Shown: piece by piece, positions 63,060 through 64,000 of the stretch
Layout of the letters: every line of letters begins with the position of its first letter
Numbering within the stretch: the stretch's first letter is position 1
Source of the DNA: Glutinoglossum americanum
Lineage: Eukaryota > Ascomycota > Geoglossomycetes > Geoglossales > Geoglossaceae
Direction: 5' to 3'
Length of the DNA: 64,000 nucleotides
Assembly (NCBI GenBank): GCA_020080175.1
Contig: JAGHQL010000008.1
Location: 184,624-248,623 of the forward strand
Notes under the pieces: generated by a model
The model's database searches: none
Told to the model about the DNA's origin: nothing
The model's input: the letters and a program-made list of their open reading frames with translations, nothing else
Program-made: the position numbers and the translations under genes

Positions 63060-63846
63060 ATGCGCCCAGACGGTCCCCGCCCCGAGGTGGTCGGTCCACC
63101 CGACGGGCCCGAACCCCCCTTCCCACTCCGCCTCTCGGGGCCCGTAATCGCAGGCTTCGGACGCGGCAGCAAAGAAGTGCGTGAGTTTCCTTTCCTGTCC
63201 CTTCCCTCCCAACCGCCTCGACCGGGCAAGACTCACTGCGGAAAGAGTGAGAGACGGAGAGGGAGAGAGAGAGAGAGTGTGTGTGTGTGCATGCATGCTG
63301 ACCGAGAACGAGCAGCTGGGCATCCCGACAGCCAACATCCCCGTTGAAGGCCTCAGCGTCGGCGGATGCGAGGACGTGGAGAGCGGCATCTACTACGGCT
63401 GGGCGGGCCTAGGCCGCACCCCGCCCGCTGAGCAGCAGCCCAAGCAAGCCGCCGAACCCACCACCACCACCACCACCACCACCACCACCACCACCACCAC
63501 CGACAACCCCAACCCCGCCGAACCCACCGCCAACCCACCCCCCGACCCCCGCCCCGCCACCTACCCCATGGTAATGTCGATCGGCTGGAACCCGTTCTAC
63601 AAAAACACAGTGCGCTCCGTCGAGGTGCACCTGCTGCACGAGTTCCCCGCGCCCTTCTACGGCGCCGCGCTGCGGCTCACCATCCTGGGCTTCATCCGCC
63701 CCGAGTACGACTACGTGAGCAAGGACGGCCTGATCCGGGATATCCGCGCCGACATCGAGGTCGCCGGGCGGTGTCTGCGGAGGGCCGGGTACGCGCGGTT
63801 TGAGGCGGAGCCGTGGTTGGCGGGGGTGGATGGGGAGGGGGAGGAG
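63060..63846 (+). CDS. FMN1: Riboflavin kinase Fmn1, 3' end lost at junction
   Basis: Two exons (63060-63176, 63316-63846) encode about 216 residues before the fungal sequence ends. Motifs are '[13 protein letters not shown]' joined across the intron to '[17 protein letters not shown]', '[10 protein letters not shown]', '[16 protein letters not shown]', '[20 protein letters not shown]', '[20 protein letters not shown]' and '[19 protein letters not shown]'. The enzyme phosphorylates riboflavin to FMN with ATP. An unusual insert of about 45 residues separates 'GWAGL' from 'YPMVMSIGW' and includes 14 consecutive Thr codons (ACC, 63460-63501). The intron contains GA- and GT-repeats. No stop codon appears after '[15 protein letters not shown]': the frame runs into the foreign bacterial segment at about 63847, so the true end is missing. 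Confidence 0.9.
63261..63292. repeat. (GA)n(GT)n microsatellite in FMN1 intron
   Basis: GAGAGA runs into GTGTGTGTG inside the intron of riboflavin kinase. Confidence 0.8.
63460..63501 (+). repeat. (ACC)14 coding repeat (poly-Thr)
   Basis: Fourteen uninterrupted ACC codons in exon 2 of riboflavin kinase encode a poly-threonine run. Confidence 0.92.
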
Positions 63847-64000
63847 GATACCGTTGATCAGGCCGATCATGGGCATGAAGAGCGCGACGACGATGACGCC
63901 GACGATCACCGCGAGCATGACGATCATGATTGGCTCCAGGATGCTGGTGAGACCGGTGACCACGTTGTCGACTTCGCCTTCATAGACGTCGGCGACCTTG
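63847..64000 (-). CDS. Bacterial type II secretion/type IV pilus F-family protein, C-terminal fragment
   Basis: On the minus strand the last ~154 bases read without a stop as a bacterial T2SS-F (GspF/PilC) C-terminus: 'KVADVYEGEVDNVVTGLTSI', 'LEPIMIVMLAVIVGVIVVAL', 'FMPMIGLINGI'. The 'E-x-EVD...LTS-LEPI' motif and the following transmembrane helix are diagnostic of this family, the polytopic inner-membrane platform protein of type II secretion and type IV pili. Fungi do not have it. The match stops abruptly near 63847, beyond which the same frame reads low-complexity reverse-strand sequence of riboflavin kinase. The 5' part lies outside the window. The codons are GC-rich. It is best explained as a chimeric join or contaminating bacterial DNA. 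Confidence 0.85.

Follow-up and report, generated by a model that had tools for sequence, protein, structure and literature searches.

Terminal chimeric contamination of eukaryotic and metagenome-assembled contigs, in which foreign sequence is joined to a contig and the phylogenetic profile changes abruptly, is treated in two studies, for metagenome-assembled genomes (MAGs) in PMC7111523 and for reference databases in PMC10978663. The latter points out that vector contamination frequently sits at contig ends and that chimeric sequences in MAGs may stem from assembly errors. The window analyzed here, i.e., the whole 64,000-nt stretch of DNA (bases 184,624 to 248,623 of contig C296; the assembly comprises 317 contigs and 25.77 Mb), resembles these cases in that a fungal gene is joined abruptly to a bacterial one. 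It differs in that the foreign tail is only 154 nt long.

Both genes belong to described families. The fungal riboflavin kinase, which we take to be of the FMN1 type, has a whole Flavokinase domain, with 64 to 68% identity to the kinases of Geoglossum simile and Trichoglossum hirsutum, and differs from known kinases in the absence of a stop codon at the contig break and in a threonine-rich insert in the middle of the protein. The bacterial part shares its C-terminal residues with PilC/GspF (T2SSF), the inner-membrane platform protein, of Verrucomicrobiota (Methylacidiphilales and relatives) and differs in being a fragment with no start, stop, or neighboring genes. The features are listed in Table 1.

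Table 1. Positions of the features discussed (window coordinates unless a contig is named)
Feature	Location	Strand	Description
Riboflavin kinase exon 1	63060..63176	+	39 aa; splice-model peptide as in relatives
Riboflavin kinase intron	63177..63315	+	Donor GTGCGT, acceptor CAG
Riboflavin kinase exon 2	63316..63846 (end approximate)	+	177 aa, without stop; PF01687; run of Thr codons (ACC repeat)
Junction	63844..63850	.	Limit of identity to L005; placed to within a few bases; directly 3' of the G/A-rich run GGGGAGGGGGAGGAGGA
Bacterial tail	63847..64000	-	Verrucomicrobiota-like PilC/GspF (T2SSF), C-terminal 51 aa; last few residues and everything upstream missing
C20 start (L087)	G000:C20:1-258		About 258 nt; DegP/HtrA fragment; TIGR02037, E = 6.3e-27; Trypsin_2, 55.8 bits (cut-off 27.6)
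C55 end (L198)	G000:C55 end (L198, about 897-1000)		About 104 nt, about 34 aa; RhlE-like helicase; RhlE2 (NCBIfam), E = 5.7e-14
C115 end (L204)	G000:C115 end (L204, about 855-1000)		About 146 nt; S9-peptidase-like; tblastn only
SSU rRNA (L215)	G000:C161:27322-28793		tRNA 215 nt downstream

The two genes and their junction

The initial annotation had described a convincing fungal riboflavin kinase on the plus strand up to about position 63846, and the two-exon model bears this out. The joined exons encode 216 aa that score 103.8 bits with Pfam Flavokinase (PF01687; cut-off 19.6), over profile positions 3 to 123 of 124, and comparison with solved structures identified a clearly related riboflavin kinase (1n05; E = 3.7e-39). 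Among the best 120 of 1,864 homologous proteins, the two closest kinases, from Trichoglossum hirsutum (68%) and Geoglossum simile (64%), carry a MAG label. The kinase had also been said to lack its stop. No complete gene with a stop codon is present, and the plus-strand frame remains open to the contig end. In an alignment with ten relatives, all stop near the same residue, indicating that the kinase domain itself is whole and that only the stop codon, perhaps with a few residues before it, is missing. A search for the rest of the kinase elsewhere in the assembly found no match. The ACC repeat (about 63459-63501) encodes a threonine run that separates one half of the kinase domain from the other.

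On the minus strand, the segment from 63847 to the contig end had been read as the conserved C terminus of a bacterial type II secretion F protein, and family models agree. The 51 aa encoded by positions 63999 to 63847 score 26.2 bits with Pfam T2SSF (cut-off 25.2), covering only profile positions 83 to 125 of 125. NCBIfam returned two PilC models (E = 9.5e-14 and 1.9e-11) and a GspF model (E = 1.1e-10), all aligned to approximately the last 50 model positions. Five models gave scores of 24.6 to 51.3 bits, below the full-length equivalog cut-offs of 401 to 700, as is expected for a fragment of 51 aa.

A translated search of this strand, one of the checks proposed in the initial annotation, also pointed to bacteria. 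Relatives were collected in one scan of genome contigs, which gave at least 228, of which 80 loci were kept. Among the matches listed, the five best loci (L005 to L009) are all bacterial, with protein identities of 84 to 90% and DNA identities of 85 to 88%. They comprise three “Candidatus Methylacidiphilales” MAGs, one Verrucomicrobia MAG, and, as the best match, a bog isolate labeled as Bacteroidetes (BOG_genome_mining.178). The last of these, L005 (CAJCII010000117.1), is titled Bacteroidetes bacterium yet tops a list of mainly Verrucomicrobiota loci, and its label may be wrong. Methylacidiphilales-affiliated 16S sequences are commonly retrieved from acidic peatlands, according to a passage of PMC8706344.

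At the DNA level, the tail is 87.6% identical to L005 over 153 nt (E = 5e-50; the database, of 80 loci, was small), and the identity stops at the junction. The differences fall at codon positions 1, 2, and 3 in numbers of 2, 3, and 15, respectively, such that 15 of the 20 are at third positions, and the tail therefore reads as a live bacterial gene that was cut mid-gene. The genes of six relatives (L005 to L010) continue for 3 to 8 residues past the junction point and have 363 to 400 codons of open frame upstream, both of which the tail lacks. The statement that the bacterial gene is missing its last residues was thus correct.

Contig C296 (248,623 bp) stops exactly at window base 64000. Because the last base of the window is also the last base of the contig, the bacterial sequence forms a tail at the terminus and is not one side of an internal junction. 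The contig ends inside the foreign segment, fungal DNA is visible on one flank only, and a second copy was not found in the assembly. There is no N gap at the junction, which is directly preceded by the G-run-rich stretch GGGGAGGGGGAGGAGGA. Short-read coverage is often poor in stretches of this type. The proposed comparison of GC across the junction failed to set the two sides apart; GC3 was 0.88 in the tail and 0.87 in the kinase, and composition therefore does not separate them.

Bacterial-looking DNA elsewhere in the assembly

Both ends of 59 of the 317 contigs, including C296, were fetched, and 113 of these 118 ends were readable. The tails of C20, C55, and C115 were first chosen by eye from terminal translations, and a family scan was made later. 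Of 209 stop-free terminal frames, the 110 of low complexity were removed, which left 99 for scanning; as only ends with a stop-free frame that was not of low complexity could contribute, the survey gives a lower bound. Three of the 113 ends carry fragments that match bacterial family models, namely, the end of C296, the start of C20, and the end of C55. Together with the end of C115, each of these fragments is cut by the contig end.

The C20 tail ranks as firm, the C55 tail as moderate, and the C115 tail, seen by tblastn alone, as weaker. The C20 tail has a GC content of 0.67, against 0.43 in the adjoining AT-richer sequence, and its nearest match among plasmid records is from Cupriavidus (74%). 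Long frames further into C20 are of low-complexity make-up and fungal looking, and two that were scanned had no Pfam match. The C55 tail is graded as moderate because it falls short of the Pfam DEAD cut-off (24.7 versus 26), because DEAD-box helicases are also fungal, and because the tblastn match to a plasmid rhlE (89.5%) spans only 19 of 34 residues. The C115 tail matched a Caballeronia plasmid sequence in tblastn (66% over 41 of 49 residues) and no Pfam or NCBIfam family. Donor taxa for C20 and C115 were taken from plasmid records only; with 74% to Cupriavidus for the C20 tail versus a Verrucomicrobiota-like C296 tail, the donors probably differ.

The NCBIfam scan of the 99 terminal peptides matched 34 families; the DegP, RhlE, and PilC groups are among the best 25, as are AnkH (4 peptides), AnkY (4), AnkX (2), and MzaA (3), which we read, tentatively in the case of MzaA, as repeat proteins of eukaryotic type, ankyrin and others. 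In Pfam, these peptides gave ankyrin and WD40 types among the best 25 of 36 families. WD40-like and ankyrin-like repeats are located at several contig ends, e.g., L097, L109, L128, L188, L195, and L199, which is expected, since repeats break assemblies. For an internal control, 113 internal stretches of the window (one contig) were used, and 127 of their 148 stop-free peptides were scanned (21 were dropped). Six NCBIfam families were found (pyruvate dehydrogenase E1 beta with two models, AlkB, a kinase, and two hypothetical; best E = 3.3e-9), and no secretion- or envelope-type family occurred among these 127 peptides.

Other searches covered the whole assembly. The T2SSF family (PF00482) has one match at E <= 0.001 in 25.8 Mb, which is the tail itself, and the rest of the bacterial pilC/gspF gene was not found elsewhere in the assembly. 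When a 6,153-base region around the L005 gene was compared with the assembly, the tail was again the only match. PF13365 has five matches, i.e., the C20 tail and four internal places. Internal Trypsin_2 matches include G000:C145:8930-9358, which has three stop codons inside, and C116:2458-2820. Sigma70_r2 gave no match in the assembly, and bacterial rpoB (TIGR02013) gave five matches on three contigs, none above the cut-off, which we read as the three nuclear RNA polymerases (Pol I, II, and III). The bacterial SSU rRNA model gave one match (649.6 bits), on C161, which is probably mitochondrial; because only 5 of 454 candidates were scored here and 9 of the 14 control genomes gave a hit, the lack of a bacterial 16S gene is a weak negative. 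No clear or sizeable bacterial contig was recognized with the markers tried.

Origin of the tail

The tail of C296 is almost certainly a chimeric extension at the contig end of what is probably a metagenome-derived fungal genome. Most likely, the last 154 bases are a gene scrap of an environmental bacterium, joined by a sequencing or assembly mistake. The foreign part lies at a contig terminus, and further unrelated foreign tails are present on other ends within the surveyed set. The truncation of different bacterial-looking genes at contig ends is expected under chimeric extension but not under a single insertion event. The initial annotation had regarded the hard break in two unrelated genes as the mark of an assembly chimera or contamination, and the terminal position of the tail and the cut fragments on other ends support that reading. 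Counting against it, interspecies chimeric scaffolds are called rare in a passage of PMC7111523.

We propose that fungal DNA was sequenced together with that of environmental bacteria, probably from a field-collected fruiting body, and that the genome was obtained by binning. The kinase protein alone points to an earth-tongue-like, metagenome-derived genome. The fungal contig may have broken where the riboflavin kinase gene ends, in sequence rich in G/A and in runs of G, and the G-rich run could have contributed to the break. One or a few chimeric reads or fragments, or a false edge in the assembly graph, would then have led 154 nt into a Verrucomicrobiota-like pilC/gspF gene, inside which the assembler would have stopped. 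Tail lengths differ (about 104, 146, 154, and 258 nt) and have no common value, and no single assembler k-mer length therefore accounts for them. Among the 118 fetched ends, the terminal words of one pair agree at a length of 41 bases but not at 55, from which a k-mer size is not inferable.

A real and recent insertion of Verrucomicrobiota DNA beside the kinase gene, with the remainder lost to the contig break, was considered the lesser possibility in the initial annotation, and we judge it very unlikely. It would fit the intact bacterial frame, within which the contig would simply happen to end, and the undisrupted kinase domain, of which the stop alone is missing. However, the fragment is cut by the physical end of the contig, and other bacterial-looking fragments lie on other contig ends, for two of which the closest plasmid records are from Burkholderiales. 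Furthermore, no additional DNA like the L005 neighborhood was found in the assembly.

It is still more improbable that, instead of chimerism at the level of reads or of the assembly graph, scaffolding placed a separate small contaminant piece beside the fungal contig. Such a piece would look the same at a contig end, but the junction has no N gap, a stand-alone contig of 154 nt would be very short, and the other tails are equally short. The idea that the tail is fungal sequence resembling PilC/GspF by chance, antisense to a kinase frame that does remain open through it, is refuted by the DNA match to a bacterial gene, which stops at the junction, and its probability is negligible.

Consequences for gene calling and gene transfer

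Under the favored reading of a mistaken join, the junction is a commonplace artefact that says nothing in favor of gene transfer. For FCS-GX, sensitivity is reported to be lower in many replicates when 1-kbp contaminants are placed at contig ends and the host and contaminant species are excluded. End tails of 100 to 260 nt may be short enough to pass automatic screens. Because the kinase frame is open through the tail, gene calling could falsely extend the kinase by about 50 residues. In addition, the tail could yield a false case of bacteria-to-fungus transfer, and the significance of the finding is one of data hygiene only.
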